DNA from: Microbacterium sp. SD291
GTDB taxonomy: Bacteria; Actinomycetota; Actinomycetes; Actinomycetales; Microbacteriaceae
Length of the DNA: 64,000 nt
Assembly (NCBI RefSeq): GCF_017355365.1
Contig: NZ_JADIJR010000013.1
Span: forward strand, 1 to 64,000
Direction: 5' to 3'
Of this stretch, positions 53,510-64,000 are shown one piece after another (positions within the stretch are counted from its first letter, which is position 1; each line of letters begins with the position of its first letter). The position numbers were made by a program, and so were the translations under genes. The notes beneath the pieces were generated by a model, which saw only the letters and a program-made list of their open reading frames with translations, made no database searches and was not told where the DNA came from.

Positions 53510-55414
53510 CTACGTGTGGCCTGCGGATCCGCGGATTCGCGCAGCAGGCCTCGGGTGACGTAAGCTTGTCCGCGGTGACGTGTCCGAGCGGCCGAAGGTG
53601 CAACTCTCGAAAAGTTGTGTAGGGTAACCCCCTACCGTGGGTTCAAATCCCACCGTCACCGCCAAGTTGTACACGTTGGAACCCCCGGTAAACGAAAGTT
53701 TGCCGGGGGTTTTGCTTTCCCGGTTTCCGGCTGCTGGTTGGGCTGAAGGGCGGCTTGTCGCGCCACTTCGCGCCGTGTGTCGCCCGTTCGCGGCAAGGAC
53801 GGCTGGATGGGCCAGTTCAGCCACTGCCGCCACGGGTGGGGCGTATTCGGCCTCGAGCACAATCTCTCGTTCTTGCGGATCATCAGGCTCATCGATGATG
53901 TCGATGCGGATGCTCGTGAACACCGCCTGGTTGAGGAGGCGCTTGGTGTGCTCGGAGACCGTGCTGTAGAGGTCGCCGGCTTTGCTCATGAGGCCTATGA
54001 CCGTGTCGACGTGTTCGCGCATGAGCAACGTGTCGGTTTCGGAGGCGCGGATGATCCGTTCCGCTGCGGCAATCTCGGCGGAAACCTGATCTTGTCGTGG
54101 TCTGATGTCTTCGGCAGCGATGACACCGTCAAGGTAAGCATCGATGAGCCGCTGCTTCTTCGTCTGGAGGGCGCGCAGGCGCTTGCGCTGTGTCCCGGCG
54201 AGCTTCTCGGCCTCGGTGCTCTCGGTATCAAGGATGCTGTGCGCAGTAGCGCGTGCGACGGTTGTCTCTTCAGGGGTGAATTGCACACGGGTGTCCCATT
54301 CGCGTTGCATGGCGTGCTCGACGTCTTCGACAGGGACGTAAGGCAGGTCGCAGGTGGTGCGGCCGGTGTGCCTGCCGAGGCAGAAGAAGTAGCTGTAGAC
54401 GCCGCCACGACCTCGGGAGTGTCCGTAGCCCATGCGTCCGCTGCAACGGTTGCAGAGCAGCCGCCCTTTGAGGGGGTGGTCGTGCTTCCATGCCCGGTCT
54501 CCGGCCAGGCGTCGGCCAGAGAGTAGCGACTGGACCTGATACCAGGTGTCATCGTCGATGAGTGCTTCGTGAGCGCCGTCGTAGACCACGCCGTGGTAGA
54601 TGATCTTCCCGATGTAATACGGGTTCTTCAGGAGGCGATGCACCTGAGAATTGCTCAGCGCCTTGCCTTCGTACTTCCTCGTTTTCCGGCTTTTCAATCC
54701 CCGCTCGGCGAGGAGGTCGGTCAGGGTCGTGATGCTGACATCGCCAGTGGCGTAGGTGCGATATGCCCAAGTGATGTGCTCGGCACGCTCCGGATCGAGC
54801 ATGATGCCTTTGATCTCGACGCCTTCGGTACGGGCGAGGGTGTTGAGATAGCCGATCGGTGCGACACCATGGGTGCCGCCGCCCCTGGCTTTCTGTTCCA
54901 TTCCCTTCATGGCCTCGGTGGCGACGTTCGAGGAGTAGTACTCATTCATCGCTGCCGTTACGGTGCGCTGGAATCGGCCTGCCGTGGTGTCGTCAAAGCG
55001 CTCGGTGACGGACTCCAGTTTCGCGCCCGTCTGCTTGATAGCAAGAAAAAGCGCCGCATCGTCAGCGGTGTTGCGTGCCAGGCGGTCGAGCTTGTGCACG
55101 ATCACGTACCCGACCTGGTGCACCTTGATGTACTCGAGGAGTGCCTGGAGTCCTGGGCGGTCGGTCGTGCGGGCGGACTCGCCTGCGTCGATGAACTGCT
55201 CAACGACCTCGGCGCCGAGGTCGTGCGCGTGACGGGTGCAGTACTCGCGCTGGGCAGGCAATGAGTACCCTTCCGGTTCGCCGTTCTTCCGTGCCTGACG
55301 AGAGGTCGACACACGCGCGTAGATCACGGCGCGCTTCATCCGAGCCGTTCTCACTTCCGTCACCTCGTCGGTAGACGGGAGTCCGATCGCCTGGGCAACA
55401 AGTTGATTTTTCAT
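53510..55414 (-). CDS. Large serine recombinase (integrase) reading antisense through tRNA-Ser
   Basis: A 634-residue frame. ATG 55414 has AAGGAGGG 8-9 bases upstream. The resolvase domain begins at RAVIYARVSTSRQ with nucleophile S36 and includes VIVHKLDRLARNTADD. The recombinase domain has LKNPYYIGKIIYHGVVYDGA. A zinc ribbon (LLCNRCSGRMGYG...CDLP) and a coiled coil (residues about 400-450) follow, as in phage-type integrases. Native-looking sequence ends around residue 560. The frame then runs across the tRNA terminator and, from about residue 584 to 614, antisense through the tRNA (giving VGFEPTVGG), stopping at 53510. Confidence 0.88.
   Translation of the reverse strand: MKNQLVAQAIGLPSTDEVTEVRTARMKRAVIYARVSTSRQARKNGEPEGYSLPAQREYCTRHAHDLGAEVVEQFIDAGESARTTDRPGLQALLEYIKVHQVGYVIVHKLDRLARNTADDAALFLAIKQTGAKLESVTERFDDTTAGRFQRTVTAAMNEYYSSNVATEAMKGMEQKARGGGTHGVAPIGYLNTLARTEGVEIKGIMLDPERAEHITWAYRTYATGDVSITTLTDLLAERGLKSRKTRKYEGKALSNSQVHRLLKNPYYIGKIIYHGVVYDGAHEALIDDDTWYQVQSLLSGRRLAGDRAWKHDHPLKGRLLCNRCSGRMGYGHSRGRGGVYSYFFCLGRHTGRTTCDLPYVPVEDVEHAMQREWDTRVQFTPEETTVARATAHSILDTESTEAEKLAGTQRKRLRALQTKKQRLIDAYLDGVIAAEDIRPRQDQVSAEIAAAERIIRASETDTLLMREHVDTVIGLMSKAGDLYSTVSEHTKRLLNQAVFTSIRIDIIDEPDDPQEREIVLEAEYAPPVAAVAELAHPAVLAANGRHTARSGATSRPSAQPAAGNRESKTPGKLSFTGGSNVYNLAVTVGFEPTVGGYPTQLFESCTFGRSDTSPRTSLRHPRPAARIRGSAGHT
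53574..53664 (+). tRNA. tRNA-Ser (anticodon CGA), CCA encoded
   Basis: The acceptor stem GGTGACG pairs with CGTCACC, with discriminator G and CCA following. The anticodon arm is CAACT-CTCGAAA-AGTTG with anticodon CGA. A long variable arm (TAGGG-TAAC-CCCTA) marks a class II serine tRNA. The T arm is GTGGG-TTCAAAT-CCCAC. The gene is 91 bases including CCA. A strong terminator follows at 53680. Confidence 0.96.
53680..53714 (+). terminator. Intrinsic terminator after tRNA-Ser
   Basis: AACCCCCGGTAAAC, loop GAAA, GTTTGCCGGGGGTT, then TTG: a 14-bp stem with one G-T pair, 15 bases downstream of the tRNA. It also lies within the antisense recombinase frame, near residues 567-578. Confidence 0.9.
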
Positions 55415-57311: not shown

Positions 57312-58997
57312 TCACTCCGTCGCGAGATCCTCGACGGGCGCCGCGGCGATGGATGTGCGGGAGGTGCGAACGCCCGCGCGGTCGAGCATCGACGGAGACG
57401 GCGTCGAAGCGGCCAGTGCGGCGCTGAAGTCCGCTCCTGGGATGCGGAGCAGCCGGCACTCGGTCGCGGCCGTCACGGTCGCAGACCGTGCGGCGTCGTC
57501 GAGGAGACCGATCTCCCCGACATAGCCGGGCGTTGCGACATCGGGCAGGTCGATCGCGACGCCGTCGTCGCGCACGGCGCTGATCTGCAGCATCCCGTCG
57601 GTGAGCACCCACAGCGCGTCGGACGGGTCGCCCTGCCGGATGATGGTCTCCCCGGCCTGCACCGTGCGCTCTTCGACGGCTTCGGCAAGGTGCTCCAGGA
57701 GGCTGCGCGGCGCGCCGGCGAAGAGGTCCAGCTGTTCGAGGACGCTCGTGTACGGCGCGAGCCGGGCGGCCTTCTGCGCCATGTCCTTGTCGATCCGCAG
57801 CAGGACAGGCACCCCGATGAGGCCGAGCAGCGGCACGCCGAGGCCGATCGCGGCGAACGCCCAGCCGATCCCGAACTGCGCGAGCAGCCAGCTGCCGAGG
57901 ATGGAGGTCAGCACCGCGCTGGCGAGGATCATCACGTCCACGGTGCCGATCACCCGCCCGAGAACGTCACGCGGCAGGTCGCGCTGGAGGGTGGTGAAGG
58001 CGAGGACGTCGACGATCACCATCCCGACGCCCGACACGACCTGCAGCAGCAGAGCGCTCGGGATGGATCCGACGAAGACGGATATCCACAGTGGCACGCA
58101 CTGGATGACGAGCGCACCCGTGATGAGCAGGGTCAGCCGCCTCGACCCGGTGAGGCGCTGAGCGAGGCCCGCGACGATCACGCTGCCCAGGGCGTTGGCG
58201 GCGAGCAGCAGGCTGTATCCCGCGACGCCGCCGTCCAGGTGCTCGGCGAGCGACGGCAGCAGCACGGTCGCGGAGCTGGCGACGGCCGAGTCGAGCACGA
58301 GGAACATCGTGAGCACGAGCGCCTTGTGGTGCTTGCCGAGCGCTGCGACGCCAGACACCCACTGGGTGAAGGCGCCGCCGCCGGGTTCGGCGCTGCCCCG
58401 TGATCGCACCCGCAGCGTCCGGTACAGAAGAGCTGCGACGACGAAGCTCGCCGCATTGATCAGGATGCCCCAGACGGGCTCACCGACCAGCAGCAGGACG
58501 GCGCCGATCCCCGGTCCGACGACCACGATCACGCTCTCCAGCACCGCGAACAAGGCGTTCGCCGCCACCAGATCGGATTCGGGGACAGTCTCGGGGATGA
58601 GCGCTCCGGATGCCGCCCTCACCGGCGAGCACACGGCCGTGAGCAGCGCCGCCGCGAGCAGGAGCAGCCACAGCGGGGCGTCGAACACGACGAGCGTCGC
58701 GATGCCCAGCGTCACGAACGCGGCGAGGATCGCGCTGACCATCAGCACCATCCGCCGGTCGTAGCGGTCGGCGAGCACACCGGCGTAACCGCCGCACAGC
58801 ATCCCGACGATCCAGCGGACGGTGACGAGCGCCGCGATCCAGCCGGCGGAATGCGTGCGCTCGAAGACGTAGGAGATGAGGACGACGTTATAAGCCCAGG
58901 ATGCTCCGCCGTCCGCGATGAACGCCAGCGCGAGGGTGCGCAGGTCGTGATGTCTCAGCGCGGCGGTGAATCGCGGCTTCGCGACACGAGTTGCCAT
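57312..58997 (-). CDS. MFS transporter with C-terminal cyclic-nucleotide-binding domain
   Basis: A 561-residue protein. Residues 1-420 are an MFS_3-type 12-helix transporter, with the loop motif GVLADRYDRRMVLMVSA near 72. Residues about 435-540 are a cNMP-binding beta roll: RTVQAGETIIRQGDPSDALW, VLTDGMLQISA, GYVGEIGLLDDAARSATVTA and TECRLLRIPG. The GEIGLLDDAARSATV phosphate-binding cassette is present. Binding of cAMP or a related nucleotide could gate transport. Substrate unknown. Stand-alone gene. Confidence 0.88.
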   Translation of the reverse strand: MATRVAKPRFTAALRHHDLRTLALAFIADGGASWAYNVVLISYVFERTHSAGWIAALVTVRWIVGMLCGGYAGVLADRYDRRMVLMVSAILAAFVTLGIATLVVFDAPLWLLLLAAALLTAVCSPVRAASGALIPETVPESDLVAANALFAVLESVIVVVGPGIGAVLLLVGEPVWGILINAASFVVAALLYRTLRVRSRGSAEPGGGAFTQWVSGVAALGKHHKALVLTMFLVLDSAVASSATVLLPSLAEHLDGGVAGYSLLLAANALGSVIVAGLAQRLTGSRRLTLLITGALVIQCVPLWISVFVGSIPSALLLQVVSGVGMVIVDVLAFTTLQRDLPRDVLGRVIGTVDVMILASAVLTSILGSWLLAQFGIGWAFAAIGLGVPLLGLIGVPVLLRIDKDMAQKAARLAPYTSVLEQLDLFAGAPRSLLEHLAEAVEERTVQAGETIIRQGDPSDALWVLTDGMLQISAVRDDGVAIDLPDVATPGYVGEIGLLDDAARSATVTAATECRLLRIPGADFSAALAASTPSPSMLDRAGVRTSRTSIAAAPVEDLATE

Positions 58998-59432: not shown

Positions 59433-59915
59433 TCAGCCCCTCACGGGTGCAACCCCGATGGCCCGCTCGCGCAGCTTGCCCAGCGCTCCGGCCGCCGGCA
59501 GGTGCTCCCAGTCGCCGGCCGTGGCCTCCAGTCCGATCGCGAGCCCGAGCGCGTAGTCCGCGTAGAAGTTCGGGACCGTCTTCAGCGCCGTCCGCCACGG
59601 GATCGGATCCGGCCCCTCCGGCAGCGGCGGGAACGGCTCCGGCTCCGGCGGGCAGATGTCGGGGATGTCGTCGAACGCGACGCCCAGCAATCGCGCAGTG
59701 CCGGCGGCCTGGACCACGGCGTACGCGGTCCTGAGGCCGTACCGCACGCCCACCGCAGCCTCGGCGGGCGGCAGGGGCTGCGGGTTCAGGGCGACCGAGT
59801 TCACAGTCCTCCCGAGCGGACCGTTCGGACCGATGATCTCCTCCCACAGGGCGGGATGCCGGTTCGCGAGTATCGCCCACAGAGCCGTCTCGCGCAGTGA
59901 CTTCCTGGGTGCCAT
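59433..59915 (-). CDS. LNPQPLPP-motif hypothetical protein of the protease locus
   Basis: A 160-residue protein; AAGGAGGG lies 8 bases before ATG 59915. VNSVALNPQPLPPAEAAVG near residue 40 contains the LNPQPLPP motif. A second proline-rich stretch ICPPEPEPFPPLPEGPDPIP is near 95. Helical segments follow, ending YADYALGLAIGLEATAGDWE. No enzyme signature is visible. It is divergent from the small gene at 60098, and its promoter region carries the GTATCA word shared with that gene and the sigma gene, so it probably belongs to the same regulon. Confidence 0.7.
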   Translation of the reverse strand: MAPRKSLRETALWAILANRHPALWEEIIGPNGPLGRTVNSVALNPQPLPPAEAAVGVRYGLRTAYAVVQAAGTARLLGVAFDDIPDICPPEPEPFPPLPEGPDPIPWRTALKTVPNFYADYALGLAIGLEATAGDWEHLPAAGALGKLRERAIGVAPVRG

Positions 59916-60011
59916 GTCGGCGCCCTCCTTCCGGTCCGCGACGGCGGACCCTCATGGCTGCAGGGGCCGGGGACGACCCGCGACCCGGGTCACAGTGCAA
60001 GAGAGCCCGCG

Positions 60012-60052
60012 CACCGCCTTGATACATCGCAGCGGCACGTATCAGGGCGACC
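60012..60052. promoter_or_regulatory. Inverted pair of GTATCA words in the divergent promoter
   Basis: On the minus strand ATGTATCAAGGCG (centred near 60018) faces the gene at 59915. On the plus strand ACGTATCAGGGCG (60038-60050) faces the gene at 60098. TGATAC and GTATCA form the two arms (60020-60025 and 60039-60044). A third copy precedes the sigma gene at 60399. Confidence 0.6.
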
Positions 60053-60097
60053 GGCATATCGCTCTCCGCTTCTGAGATGAACGAAGGAGACCGGATC

Positions 60098-60382
60098 ATG
60101 AACACAGCAGTCCCACCCCGCCTCGAGGAGGCGGTCGACCGTCTCTCCCGCACCGTCGGGGCTCTCCTGGGCGGTACACCCGGAGCGCAGGAGGTCATCT
60201 GCAGTCTGGATTTCGCGGCGGCGGAGGCGCTCGCCGAAGTGCTCGAGGCCGGCCGGCACGGCGATGTCGCCGCGCGTCTCATGCATCGCTGGGCTGTCAC
60301 GGAACCGGATTGGGACGAAGAGTACGGCGACGTCATCCGCCGGTGGCTCGCCCTCGACGTCGGGTCGATCCCGGCTCGCTGA
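60098..60382 (+). CDS. Small hypothetical protein upstream of the sigma factor
   Basis: A 94-residue acidic helical protein. ATG 60098 has AAGGAGA 8 bases upstream, which decides against ATG 60077. LEEAVDRLSRTVGALLGG forms helix 1. LDFAAAEALAEVLEAGRHGD follows, then ARLMHRWAVTEPDWDEEYGD. No family is recognised. Shared upstream words with the sigma gene suggest co-regulation. An adaptor or anti-sigma role is possible but unsupported by motif. Confidence 0.6.
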   Translation: MNTAVPPRLEEAVDRLSRTVGALLGGTPGAQEVICSLDFAAAEALAEVLEAGRHGDVAARLMHRWAVTEPDWDEEYGDVIRRWLALDVGSIPAR

Positions 60383-60398
60383 AGAATCTTCCGCGGAC

Positions 60399-60412
60399 AT
60401 GTATCAGGAGCG
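60399..60412 (+). promoter_or_regulatory. GTATCAGG word before the sigma-factor gene
   Basis: ATGTATCAGGAGCG lies about 40 bases before the likely sigma ATG. It matches ACGTATCAGGGCG at 60038 and, on the other strand, ATGTATCAAGGCG near 60012-60024. Confidence 0.55.
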
Positions 60413-60451
60413 CTCTACCGCTCTCTACCCGGTGTGGACACAATTGACCGT

Positions 60452-61060
60452 ATGACGCAGGAGGGGGCCGTTGCGGCGGTCGATTCCACGGAGCCCGCGC
60501 GCTGGGAACGCGCGGGCTCCCTCTTCTCACGCTGGCGCGAAGGCGACGGGCGTGCGATGGACGAGCTCGTGCGGCTCATGACGCCGTCGCTGTGGCACAT
60601 CGTGCGCGCCTACGGGCTCGATGCCGCGCTCGCGCAGGACGTCGTGCAGACGACCTGGCTGACGCTCGTCCGCCGGCACGACTCGATCATCGATCCGCGG
60701 GCGATCTCGGGATGGCTGACGATGTGCGCGCGCCGCGAGGCGTGGCGCGTGGGCAAGGGGCAGCGGCGCGACGGCGCGACCGACGCGGACTCGCTCGAGC
60801 CGCGCCTGCCCGCGCACGAGTCGGCCGAGCAGACCGCCGAGGTGCAGGACGACAGCCGCCGGCTGTGGAGCTGCGTGCGGACGCTCGACGAGCGATGCCA
60901 GCGACTGCTGCGGGTCGTCGCTTTCGAGGAGCGCCCCGACTACGCGCGCATCGCGACGGACCTCCGGATGCCGATCGGGTCGATCGGGCCGACGCGTCAG
61001 CGGTGTCTCGGCAAGCTCCGCGCCCTGCTCGAGGGCGACGGCTGGGGAGGAAGATCATGA
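60452..61060 (+). CDS. Sigma-70-family (ECF-like) RNA polymerase sigma factor
   Basis: A 202-residue factor. Region 2 is FSRWREGDGRAMDELVRLMT, then LAQDVVQTTWLTLVRRHDSI and the DNA-contacting ISGWLTMCARREAWRVGK. Region 4 is CVRTLDERCQRLLRVVAFEE, then YARIATDLRMPIGSIGPTRQ and RCLGKLRALL. ATG 60452 is chosen by homology; a GTG at 60434 is in frame. No ribosome site is obvious, so a leaderless transcript is possible. Codons 13-23 encode a perfect hairpin (60490-60520). The next gene overlaps its stop. Such factors lead actinobacterial subtilase/TPR-CHAT gene sets. Confidence 0.87.
   Translation: MTQEGAVAAVDSTEPARWERAGSLFSRWREGDGRAMDELVRLMTPSLWHIVRAYGLDAALAQDVVQTTWLTLVRRHDSIIDPRAISGWLTMCARREAWRVGKGQRRDGATDADSLEPRLPAHESAEQTAEVQDDSRRLWSCVRTLDERCQRLLRVVAFEERPDYARIATDLRMPIGSIGPTRQRCLGKLRALLEGDGWGGRS
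60490..60520 (+). promoter_or_regulatory. Perfect 12-bp hairpin inside the 5' end of the sigma gene
   Basis: GGAGCCCGCGCG (60490-60501), loop CTGGGAA, CGCGCGGGCTCC (60509-60520), then CTCTTCTC. It begins 38 bases into the coding region and has intrinsic-terminator-like form. It could attenuate transcription or slow early translation. Confidence 0.6.
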
Positions 61061-61533
61061 CCAGGGACGATGGGGCCCGAAGCCCGGACGCCGCGCTGTT
61101 CGCGCGGCTTCGCGAGACGTGGGAGGCCGCCGATCCGGTGCCGGACGATCTCGTCGACCGGATGGTCGCCGCCGTCGCGGTCGAGGATCTGTCGCGCGCG
61201 TACGAGCTGCTGACGCTCGTCGAGGCGACGCCGCTCGCGGTGGTCCGCGGTGAGACCGACACCGCGACCCTGCAGTTCAGCGACGGGCAGACCAGCGTGC
61301 TGCTGCACGTGACAGCGACCGAGGACGGCTCCCGCCGCGTCGACGGGTGGGTGGATGCCGAGGCGCTCGCCATCCGCCTCGCGCAGGGCGAGCGGGACTG
61401 GCCGGCCGTCGCCGGCGAGCACGGGCGCTTCCAGTTCGACTCGATCCCGGCAGGGGTCTCGAGGCTGCGCATCGTCGTGCGCGGCGGCGACGGCGACCTG
61501 CACGAGTTCCAGACCCCGCAGTTCGAAGTGTGA
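61057..61533 (+). CDS. Beta-sandwich (carboxypeptidase-regulatory-like) partner of the sigma factor
   Basis: A 158-residue protein with GGGAGGAAG before ATG 61057, overlapping the sigma stop in ATGA. The N-terminal helical part is LFARLRETWEAADPVPDDLV, then DRMVAAVAVEDLSRAYELLT. The rest is beta-rich and ends GRFQFDSIPAGVSRLRIVVR and EFQTPQFEV, the FxFxxIPxGxxRL pattern of Cna-B/CarboxypepD_reg-type folds. No transmembrane helix is present. Coupling to a sigma gene suggests an anti-sigma or sensor role, by position only. Confidence 0.7.
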   Translation: MTRDDGARSPDAALFARLRETWEAADPVPDDLVDRMVAAVAVEDLSRAYELLTLVEATPLAVVRGETDTATLQFSDGQTSVLLHVTATEDGSRRVDGWVDAEALAIRLAQGERDWPAVAGEHGRFQFDSIPAGVSRLRIVVRGGDGDLHEFQTPQFEV

Positions 61534-61546
61534 GTGAGGAGAAGCC

Positions 61547-63082
61547 GTGAGCGATCAGGACGCGACGATGAGGGACCCGGACGACTGGCGGGAGGTGCGG
61601 CGCTTCGCGCTGCTCGACCCCTCCGGCGAGGTCCCCGGCTCGGTCTTCCCGACGCTGTACGTCGCCGACGAGCTCCTGGTTCACACCGCCGAGGCGGACC
61701 CGCGTGCGATCGAGGAGCTGCGCGCTCTGGCTGCGAAGGCGGGCTGGGCGCTCGACCTCGACGCGGAGGACGGCGGGGTCGAGGGCCCTCGCTCCGACCC
61801 GAAGCGCCGCCGCGCGCCTCGCCGCTCGCGCGGGGCGAGCACATCGGTCCTGCTGCATCTCGGCGTGGCATCCGACGCGGATCGCGTGGTCGCGACCCCC
61901 GACGCGTGGGCTCTGCTGCGTCAGGCGCGGCGCAGCGACTGGGGCCGGAGGGGCATCGGCCTCAATCACGTGCTGACCACCGACACGATCGGGCTCAACC
62001 CGTTCAAAGCCAATCCGTTCAAGGCGAACCCGTTCAAAGCGAACCCTTTCAAGGCGAATCCGTTCAAGGCGAACGCCGGCACCGTGGGGATCGGCAGCTA
62101 CGGCGACCTCGGCACCGGCGGCCTGCAGCCGGTGACCTACCTCGGGCCGGCTCCCGCACGCCGCCACCCGAACGCGACCCCGCCGATCGTCGCGGTGTTC
62201 GACACAGGCGCGGGAGAGCATCCGTGGCTCGCGGATGCCGTGATCGAGCCCCGGCTCCGCTCGGGCGAGCCCATCGGGATCGACCCGGCGTCGCCGACGG
62301 ATCCGGAGCGCGACCCATCGCTCGCCGAGCCGCTGGACGGGATCTTCGACGACGCGGCGGGGCACGGCACATTCATCGCCGGCATCATCCGCCAGGAGTG
62401 CCCTGATGCCATGATCCTGCCGGCGCGGATCGCCGACGGCGAGGGCGTGATCCTCGAGAACGACCTGATCGGGGCGCTCGGGCGGCTCGTGGAGTTCATG
62501 GACGACACCACCCTCGAGAAGAAGCGCGGCGGCTCCAGGGTCGCGGTGCTGAATCTCTCGTTCAGCTACTACCACGAGACCCCGGACGACCCTGGCACGG
62601 TGTCCGAACTCGGACGGCTTCTCGACGAGATCCGCGGGCGGGGCTGCGCCGTGGTCTGCTCCGCGGGGAACGAGGCGACATCGAGACCGACCTATCCCGC
62701 CGCGATCCCCGCCGAGAAGCCGGACCTGCACGTGTCGGTCGGCGCGCTGAACCCCTCGGACCGCTCCGTGGCGCTGTTCTCGAACGTCGGAGACTGGGTC
62801 GAGGTGTACGCGCCGGGCGTCTCGCTGCTCTCCACGGTGCCGGTCGCGTTCGAGGGCGGGATCCAGGCCGGAACGAGGGATGACGGTCACGGCCGTCGCC
62901 GGCAGACGCTGGACGTCGACGACTTCCGCGGCGGATTCGGGGTGTGGAGCGGCACGTCGTTCGCCGCGCCCGTCGTCGCGGGTCGCATCGCGGCGCAGAT
63001 CGTGGCGGGCGAGAGCCCCGATGCCGCGAAGAAGATCGTGGTGAGCGAACTCGCCGGACGGGACCGCTCGCGGATGGAGTGA
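61547..63082 (+). CDS. Intracellular S8 (subtilisin-family) protease with NPFKA repeats
   Basis: A 511-residue protein starting with GTG 61547 after AGGAGAAG. There is no signal peptide or membrane helix, so it should act in the cytoplasm. The catalytic triad is D219 in VAVFDTGAG, H273 in GHGTFIAGI and S471 in GTSFAAPVVAG. The oxyanion asparagine is in CSAGNEATS. A 150-residue N-terminal prodomain-like region precedes five NPFKA repeats (151-175), which stand between it and the protease. Position after the sigma and beta-sandwich genes and before a TPR/CHAT gene suggests a proteolytic signalling cascade. Confidence 0.9.
   Translation: MSDQDATMRDPDDWREVRRFALLDPSGEVPGSVFPTLYVADELLVHTAEADPRAIEELRALAAKAGWALDLDAEDGGVEGPRSDPKRRRAPRRSRGASTSVLLHLGVASDADRVVATPDAWALLRQARRSDWGRRGIGLNHVLTTDTIGLNPFKANPFKANPFKANPFKANPFKANAGTVGIGSYGDLGTGGLQPVTYLGPAPARRHPNATPPIVAVFDTGAGEHPWLADAVIEPRLRSGEPIGIDPASPTDPERDPSLAEPLDGIFDDAAGHGTFIAGIIRQECPDAMILPARIADGEGVILENDLIGALGRLVEFMDDTTLEKKRGGSRVAVLNLSFSYYHETPDDPGTVSELGRLLDEIRGRGCAVVCSAGNEATSRPTYPAAIPAEKPDLHVSVGALNPSDRSVALFSNVGDWVEVYAPGVSLLSTVPVAFEGGIQAGTRDDGHGRRRQTLDVDDFRGGFGVWSGTSFAAPVVAGRIAAQIVAGESPDAAKKIVVSELAGRDRSRME
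61997..62071 (+). repeat. Five NPFKA coding repeats
   Basis: Five 15-base units encode NPFKA exactly but use varied synonymous codons: AAC/AAT, CCG/CCT, AAA/AAG and GCC/GCG. The repeat is therefore conserved at the protein level rather than being a fresh DNA duplication. It lies between the N-terminal region and the S8 domain. Confidence 0.93.
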
Positions 63083-63102
63083 TCACGCGCCATCCTGAGA
63101 GC

Positions 63103-64000
63103 ATGAAGCTGTCCGCCGCAGAGCTGCACCGTCAGGGACGTGCTCATCTGAACGCGGGACGGAACGCGGCGGCGCGACGCGTGCTGAAGCTCGCCGCCGA
63201 GCGGACGGACGACCAGGACCTGCGCGCCCGCATCGCCGGCTCGCTCGCCGCGCTGACGATCCGCCAGGGGGATCCGGAAGCCGCCGAGCAGCTGTGCCGC
63301 GAGGCGCTGGCGCTGCCGGGGGTGTCCGACGGCACGGCGGCGATCGTGTACGGTCAGCTCGGCCTCCTCGCCCTCGAGCGCGGCGCGCTGGACGAGGCGG
63401 TGACGCTGCTCGATCGCGGGATCACCGGGATCGGCGAGGAGGCGGAGTACCGGGCGCCCATGCTGGTCAACCGCAGCGTCGCGCACAGCCAGGCCGGGCG
63501 GCTCGCGGCGGCGCGGGCGGACGTCGAGGCGGCGGCGGACGACTACCGCACGGTCGGGGGCGAAGTGGAGCGGGCGATGGCGATGCACAACGCCGGCTAC
63601 ATCGCTCTGCTCGAGGGCGACCTGATCGCCGCGCTGGACACCATGGGCGAGGCCCGCGGCGCGCTCGCCGCGGCATCCGCCGTGAACGCGGCGATCTGCG
63701 ACCTGGACCGCGCAGAGGTGCTGCGGGATGCCGGGCTCGCTCGGGAGGCCGAGCGCAGCCTCGAGCGCGTCGTCGCGGTGTTCGGCGCGAACCGGATGCG
63801 GCAGGCGAAGGGCGAGGCGCAGTTCCATCTGGCACGGTCGCTGCTCACGCATACGCCGGCGAAGGCCGTGGCCGCCGCATCCGCCGCCGCCCGCACCTTC
63901 CGCGCGGTCGGCAGCGATTGGTGGGCGCTGCGCGCTGACGGGCTGCGCCTGCGCGCGCGGCTGATCGCGGAGCGCGACGTGCCCGGTGGCGGGCGGAGGA
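63103..64000 (+). CDS. TPR-repeat protein, probably CHAT-protease type, truncated by the window end
   Basis: This frame is open from ATG 63103 (GAGAG upstream) to the end of the window, 299 codons with no stop. It consists of TPR-like helical pairs: AELHRQGRAHLNAGRNAAAR near residue 5, AIVYGQLGLLALERGALDEA near 85, VNRSVAHSQAGRLAAARADV near 125, AMHNAGYIALLEGDLIAALD near 163, and CDLDRAEVLRDAGLAREAER near 203. In actinobacteria, proteins with this TPR pattern beside a sigma/S8 gene pair usually end in a caspase-like CHAT domain. That part lies outside the window and is inferred. Confidence 0.8.
   Translation, partial: MKLSAAELHRQGRAHLNAGRNAAARRVLKLAAERTDDQDLRARIAGSLAALTIRQGDPEAAEQLCREALALPGVSDGTAAIVYGQLGLLALERGALDEAVTLLDRGITGIGEEAEYRAPMLVNRSVAHSQAGRLAAARADVEAAADDYRTVGGEVERAMAMHNAGYIALLEGDLIAALDTMGEARGALAAASAVNAAICDLDRAEVLRDAGLAREAERSLERVVAVFGANRMRQAKGEAQFHLARSLLTHTPAKAVAAASAAARTFRAVGSDWWALRADGLRLRARLIAERDVPGGGRR

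Follow-up and report, generated by a model that had tools for sequence, protein, structure and literature searches.

We analysed the first 64,000 nucleotides (hereafter the window; G000:C5:1-64000) of a 97,890-base contig of Microbacterium sp. SD291, the far end of which carries a cassette of four genes encoding an extracytoplasmic function (ECF)-type sigma factor, a small beta-sandwich protein, a subtilase of family S8 and a tetratricopeptide repeat (TPR) protein that continues past the window edge. Every gene that an earlier note, made from the letters alone, had listed at 59433-64000 was present at its position (Table 1), including a small protein, for which the second ATG is the likely start, and a divergently encoded protein with the motif LNPQPLPP. 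No signal-peptide-like or membrane-like stretch was found in any protein of the locus, and the small, LNPQPLPP and beta-sandwich proteins of the window received no name from PADLOC, NCBIfam or Pfam. Within the S8 protein, a tandem array of identical short peptides occupies the junction between prodomain and catalytic domain.

Table 1. Positions of the cassette, its neighbours and associated features (window positions unless a locus is named)
Feature	Position	Strand	Remarks
LNPQPLPP-motif protein	59433..59915	-	160 aa, no known family
Promoter-like motif TGTATCA-N16-CTC, LNPQPLPP gene	60001..60026	-	
Promoter-like motif CGTATCA-N17-CTC, small gene	60038..60064	+	
Small protein	60098..60382	+	94 aa, no known family
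Promoter-like motif TGTATCA-N16-CTC, sigma cassette	60400..60425	+	
ECF-type sigma factor	60452..61060	+	202 aa, ECF54-like by gene context
Two-helix plus beta-sandwich protein	61057..61533	+	158 aa; ATGA overlap with sigma gene
S8 protein, leaderless pro-subtilisin (predicted)	61547..63082	+	511 aa, PF00082
S8 prodomain, residues 37-145	61655..61981	+	AlphaFold2 model, 3whi alignment
Tandem array NPFKA x5, residues 151-175	61997..62071	+	prodomain/catalytic junction
S8 catalytic domain, residues 199-505	62141..63061	+	D219/H273/S471
TPR-CHAT protease (by domain and dyad)	63103..64000 in window, ends 65565 on contig	+	820 aa
RNA candidate, examples	L062:9011-9190, L107:12994-13173, L119:13117-13296		about 30 other loci

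The S8 protein, whose nearest named relatives are from Microbacterium, matched PF00082 (5e-22), and its catalytic residues D219, H273 and S471 were invariant both in 22 and in 36 S8 homologues, with an equally invariant oxyanion asparagine (N375) in the family, which bears out the earlier description of a leaderless subtilase with an intact triad. In the AlphaFold2 model (mean predicted local distance difference test, pLDDT, 83.8), a well predicted prodomain (residues 37-144) with the fold strand-helix-strand-strand-helix-strand and an invariant histidine (His141) is followed by a low-confidence stretch (residues 148-177, pLDDT < 50) and, after residue 199, by a subtilisin domain. Among the top structure matches of the model were pro-Tk-subtilisin, prodomain-bound PCSK9 and unautoprocessed pro-subtilisin E; residues 40-509 aligned to residues 7-350 of unautoprocessed pro-subtilisin E (3whi) with a Z score of 29.4, and the alignments of mature subtilisins started at residue 197-199. 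As modelled, the protein is thus a leaderless pro-subtilisin with its prodomain packed as in unautoprocessed zymogens, and since the array at 148-177 lies between the prodomain and the mature start, it corresponds to the self-processing junction.

The array itself, five tandem copies of NPFKA whose DNA copies differ from one another only synonymously, had been missed in the earlier note's reading of the S8 protein. The S8 protein was searched in 149 genomes of the genus (80 matching) and 395 genomes of the class (25 matching), and a perfect tandem repeat stood between the N-terminal domain and the catalytic Asp in most of the first 41 loci. With at most one mismatch allowed per unit, an array of at least three units was detected in about 88 of 140 S8 homologues compared with 3 of 2800 shuffled sequences, two further matches among the homologues being probably due to chance. 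The arrays comprise 3-12 tandem copies of a peptide of 5-7 residues that is identical within a protein and different between species, with about 60 different units in all (for example NPFTG, NPYGST, APFTRG, HPITGG, GYGDGV, SPFFA and NPAYQG); copy number also varies, NPFKA being present five times here and seven times in L107. Within arrays, the proportion of synonymous differences (pS) was 0.49 and that of nonsynonymous differences (pN) 0.013 (pN/pS 0.03), the low pN being partly favoured by the mismatch limit in detection, and the codon difference between copies (0.36) was close to that of random draws from the gene's own usage (0.41). Because codons are scrambled while amino-acid changes are rare, most arrays are not fresh DNA duplications, which suggests that selection keeps the copies identical; the SPFFA array in L157 looks recent, one of few such cases. 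Between proteins the unit turns over quickly, differing in 24% of pairs below 10% catalytic divergence, in 66% at 10-20% and in 93% at 20-30%. Two loci (L138 and L141) each contain two S8/TPR-CHAT pairs with a different array per pair, and even between genera a pair retains its own unit (GPFTSG with GPFTSG, HPMYDG with HPLYDG), with the CHAT proteins pairing off in the same way as the units. A literature search returned no related report of repeats at subtilase junctions.

Subtilisins cut Pro-aromatic P2-P1 pairs well, as in AAPF substrates, and in the arrays the residue after proline was F, Y, H, L, I, M or W at 82 of 89 proline positions. On account of this pattern and of their junction position, the copies are best read as putative self-cleavage sites. 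Two other assignments were considered and set aside: a cleavage site shared with another protein is unlikely, NPFKA occurring nowhere else in its own genome, and cutting by the CHAT protease through the Arg/Lys specificity of clan CD proteases does not suit the many units that have no basic residue.

The remaining cassette proteins were assigned as follows. When the sequence was read past position 64000, the TPR protein proved to end in a CHAT domain (PF12770, 2.5e-21) whose His699/Cys739 dyad was invariant in 21 homologues, so that what had been called a probable CHAT protein is, by domain and dyad, a CHAT protease, and the two proteases and one sigma factor claimed for the cassette are all present. 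Its TPR repeats stayed below Pfam cut-offs, with generic TPR structure matches, and it matched no NCBIfam model, that of the Csx29 family included. The sigma protein matched Sigma70_r2 (PF04542, 31.3 bits, 1.8e-7, cut-off 24) and the NCBIfam model sigma70-ECF (TIGR02937, 56.2 bits over residues 35-191, cut-off 42.9), which classifies it as ECF-type and, by gene context, as ECF54-like. For its neighbour, the AlphaFold2 model (pLDDT 84.9) has two helices followed by eight strands, in support of the beta-sandwich label given earlier; D26, P27, P29, R64, G97 and F125 are invariant in the family, 14 of 39 members of which matched CarboxypepD_reg, and no relative with E < 0.001 was retrieved from the PDB. 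The coupling of the two genes and the two-helix N-terminus make this protein a candidate sigma-binding partner.

The four families form a real conserved unit across Actinomycetota. They occurred together in 39 of 40 S8-anchored neighbourhoods and in 106 of 134 loci, S8 being present by construction in S8-anchored loci, and they did so in at least eight orders and orientations (sigma-sandwich-S8-CHAT, S8-sigma-sandwich-CHAT, CHAT divergent from S8-sigma-sandwich, and others). In the reverse direction, a beta-sandwich model matched 23 of 296 genomes of the phylum, with a sigma gene near 20 of these matches, a CHAT gene near 16 and an S8 gene near 14. Named genomes with the unit belong to Nocardioides, Cellulosimicrobium, Knoellia, Asanoa, Amycolatopsis, Nonomuraea, Actinomadura, Streptomyces, Saccharopolyspora and Acidimicrobiia, and at least partial gene sets were found in Chloroflexota.

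The same note had regarded the system as undescribed, which is not the case. A 2022 review (PMC8999054), which reports the ECF54 group from Huang 2015 and Casas-Pastor 2021, describes conserved carboxypeptidase, subtilase and CHAT proteins encoded around ECF54 sigma genes, a conserved context from which control by proteolysis has been proposed. By that definition, the cassette has the ECF54 gene context, and the CarboxypepD_reg matches in the beta-sandwich family would explain the review's word carboxypeptidase. The passages of the review that were consulted contain neither the junction array nor the regulon link of the LNPQPLPP protein nor the RNA candidate described below, and the searchable literature yielded no report of the array, the promoter motif or the RNA candidate, with the primary ECF54 papers, which may hold a predicted promoter, lying beyond the search. 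The neighbourhood is thus known, whereas the array at the junction, the outputs defined by the promoter and the candidate RNA appear to be new.

The shared promoter words noted earlier proved to be one motif type, NGTATCA-N16/17-CTC, which in the window lies ahead of the small gene, the sigma cassette and the LNPQPLPP gene and, just outside it, ahead of a further operon encoding a TCAD7-CHAT protein. Across loci, 127 copies were counted in 73 loci against 2.8 expected, and of 67 motif-bearing loci, 62 had a copy ahead of the cassette's first gene. From its position, the motif is probably read by the cassette's own sigma factor, which would make the cassette autoregulated. Strict counts averaged about 3.3 in 16 cassette-bearing Microbacterium genomes and 1.3 in 16 cassette-free ones, suggesting a small, mostly local regulon; a large genome-wide regulon was rejected, most of the motif excess being at the cassette itself. 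Homologues of the LNPQPLPP protein were detected in 6 of 148 genomes of the same genus, four of the six at other loci, and no match to the protein emerged from the literature search. Because the motif lies just upstream of all six, the protein is likely an output of the sigma factor and not part of the switch; nor is it a conserved structural partner of the cassette, being absent from the other fetched cassette neighbourhoods and encoded mostly at unlinked loci.

Several further genes stand behind this motif. The operon downstream of the TPR-CHAT gene (contig 65837-69598, L002:7337-11098) is on the same strand behind a CGTATCA-N16-CTC copy and encodes, besides the TCAD7-CHAT protein, an alpha/beta-hydrolase-like protein with a DUF7379 domain. 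Divergently from its LNPQPLPP gene, the closest relative (G551) encodes a second subtilase (L239:2168-3481), again with the motif upstream; this subtilase combines a prodomain of the fervidolysin type with a CarboxypepD_reg domain. A homologue of the 94-aa small protein and a vWA-like protein are encoded back to back at L118:13633 and 13815, both behind the motif, and two more sites in the genome under study (G000:C38:11868-11893 and G000:C78:16526-16551) precede uncharacterised genes of 471 and 301 codons without Pfam match.

Taking these observations together, we consider it somewhat probable that the locus is a cytoplasmic, autoregulated sigma switch of the ECF54 type that includes an S8 zymogen and a TPR-CHAT protease and in which the array serves as a self-cleavage substrate. 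In such a switch, the sigma factor would be kept in check, the likeliest inhibitor being the ATGA-coupled helix/beta-sandwich protein, until a stimulus trips both proteases; TPR-CHAT, activated via its TPR domain, and/or S8 would then cleave the sigma partner, and the freed sigma factor would read TGTATCA-N16/17-CTC at its own cassette, in a self-amplifying manner, and at the small gene, the LNPQPLPP gene and the TCAD7-CHAT/hydrolase operon. Each array copy would be self-cleaved, so that S8 activation would consume the array and set free one peptide in several copies. Release or activation of the sigma factor by cleavage, as the earlier note had proposed, would have a precedent in Csx29, a TPR-CHAT protease that cleaves Csx30, the inhibitor of an ECF-like sigma factor (PMC10028731). 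Besides the effect of the mismatch limit on pN, four points weigh against this scheme. The residue after proline showed no covariation with S8 S1-pocket columns above background, although exchange among F, Y and L would not need it; cassette S8 homologues of Streptomyces, Actinomadura and Saccharopolyspora have no array, which is therefore not obligatory; none of the solved anti-sigma factors was a significant match for the beta-sandwich protein; and PMC8999054 assumes that ECF54 acts without an anti-sigma factor.

What the array does admits several explanations. It might simply keep the junction long and cuttable, or block the active site, and so set the ease of S8 activation while the pieces have no target; its place between prodomain and catalytic domain, the Pro-aromatic pattern in most units and the variable copy number agree with this, but such a timer or tether needs neither identical copies nor whole-unit change between species with scrambled codons, and we regard it as a tentative possibility. 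Alternatively, the 3-12 released copies might act as a signal by binding to the TPR domain and switching TPR-CHAT on, with a logic like that of RRNPP pheromone circuits but inside the cell, the fast unit change then insulating peptide and receptor from those of other strains or paralogues. Unit length (5-7 residues), strict identity within each array, rapid turnover between species and a TPR protein as the neighbour of S8 all speak for such a signal, RRNPPA systems are known to have propeptides that contain multiple pheromones (PMC11343458), and the pair-specific units kept across genera in L138 and L141 are suggestive. Against it stand the missing export signal, the array-less cassettes that still have TPR-CHAT, and a TPR-unit pairing that is not separated from phylogeny; a peptide signal is doubtful, and equally doubtful is the intracellular circuit that would follow from it, with strain-specific peptides from the S8 zymogen junction activating TPR-CHAT to free the ECF sigma factor.

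Docking peptides are typically short motifs of the Pro-aromatic kind, and short peptides are what TPR domains bind. The identical copies might accordingly remain uncut and bind TPR-CHAT, the beta-sandwich protein or the sigma factor multivalently, with S8 directly degrading the sigma factor to keep the system off, and S8 degradation of sigma is what PMC8999054 gives as proposed for ECF54. The array, however, sits at the self-cleavage site of pro-subtilisins, and S8 and sigma lie behind one motif, which would be unusual for a constitutive brake; docking therefore appears improbable. That the genes are mere neighbours without joint function has in its favour the general rule that neighbours need not interact, and it is next to inconceivable given their co-occurrence through many rearrangements and across families and their common promoter motif.

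Set beside known systems, the sigma switch proposed here resembles the ECF54 group, in which, according to PMC8999054, an ECF sigma gene likewise lies beside carboxypeptidase(-regulatory-like), subtilase and CHAT genes in Actinobacteria and proteolytic control has been proposed. Type III-E Craspase (Csx29, Csx30 and CASP-sigma) also combines a TPR-CHAT protein, an ECF-like sigma factor and a sigma partner, and its protease relieves sigma inhibition, the step that we propose here; the cassette differs from it in having no Csx29 model match and no identified Cas7-11 or Csx30, and in its additional subtilase. With pro-subtilisins and fervidolysin-type S8 proteases the S8 protein shares, on its model, prodomain fold, catalytic domain and junction position, but it has no signal peptide, and a run of identical peptides lengthens its junction. 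RRNPP(A) systems likewise pair a TPR protein with short linear peptides and include subtilisin-type maturation proteases and multi-copy propeptides, whereas the would-be peptide here is inside a 511-aa intracellular protease rather than a small secreted propeptide, and the receptor role is putative. EACC-caspase or ternary conflict systems (Kaur 2020, 2021) combine caspase-fold peptidases with alpha/beta hydrolases, which the downstream TCAD7-CHAT and DUF7379 pair resembles; no EACC constant component was among the Pfam matches of the cassette proteins, the coverage of EACC families in the library being unchecked. ECF54-type loci have been listed for years with a remark on proteolysis and no handle on how it works, and the junction array provides a concrete one in the form of short, species-specific peptides that can be synthesized, while the promoter motif supplies a reporter as well as a regulon. 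Were the peptides signals, the result would be a pheromone-like circuit inside the cell's own cytoplasm with two unrelated protease types.

The motif also occurs within 130 bases after the TPR-CHAT stop codon in 37 loci. In 33 loci examined, no clear gene came next; instead there was a stretch of about 180 bases in which CTGGGGA boxes recur and which can fold into GGGG-loop hairpins, with a strong terminator-like hairpin at the end. This makes the stretch a candidate noncoding RNA of the sigma regulon that may be driven by the motif. Compensatory changes were seen in the terminator and in one loop hairpin, single-sequence folding energies were only mildly better than those of shuffles, the outer stem was not recovered by automatic alignment, and no Rfam family matched. 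The window's own locus has no such candidate after its CHAT gene. On the other side of the cassette, the minus strand of the window encodes, a few kb upstream, a protein resembling large serine recombinases (53510-55414), and at 57312-58997 a protein resembling MFS transporters whose C-terminal domain is cyclic-nucleotide-binding-like.

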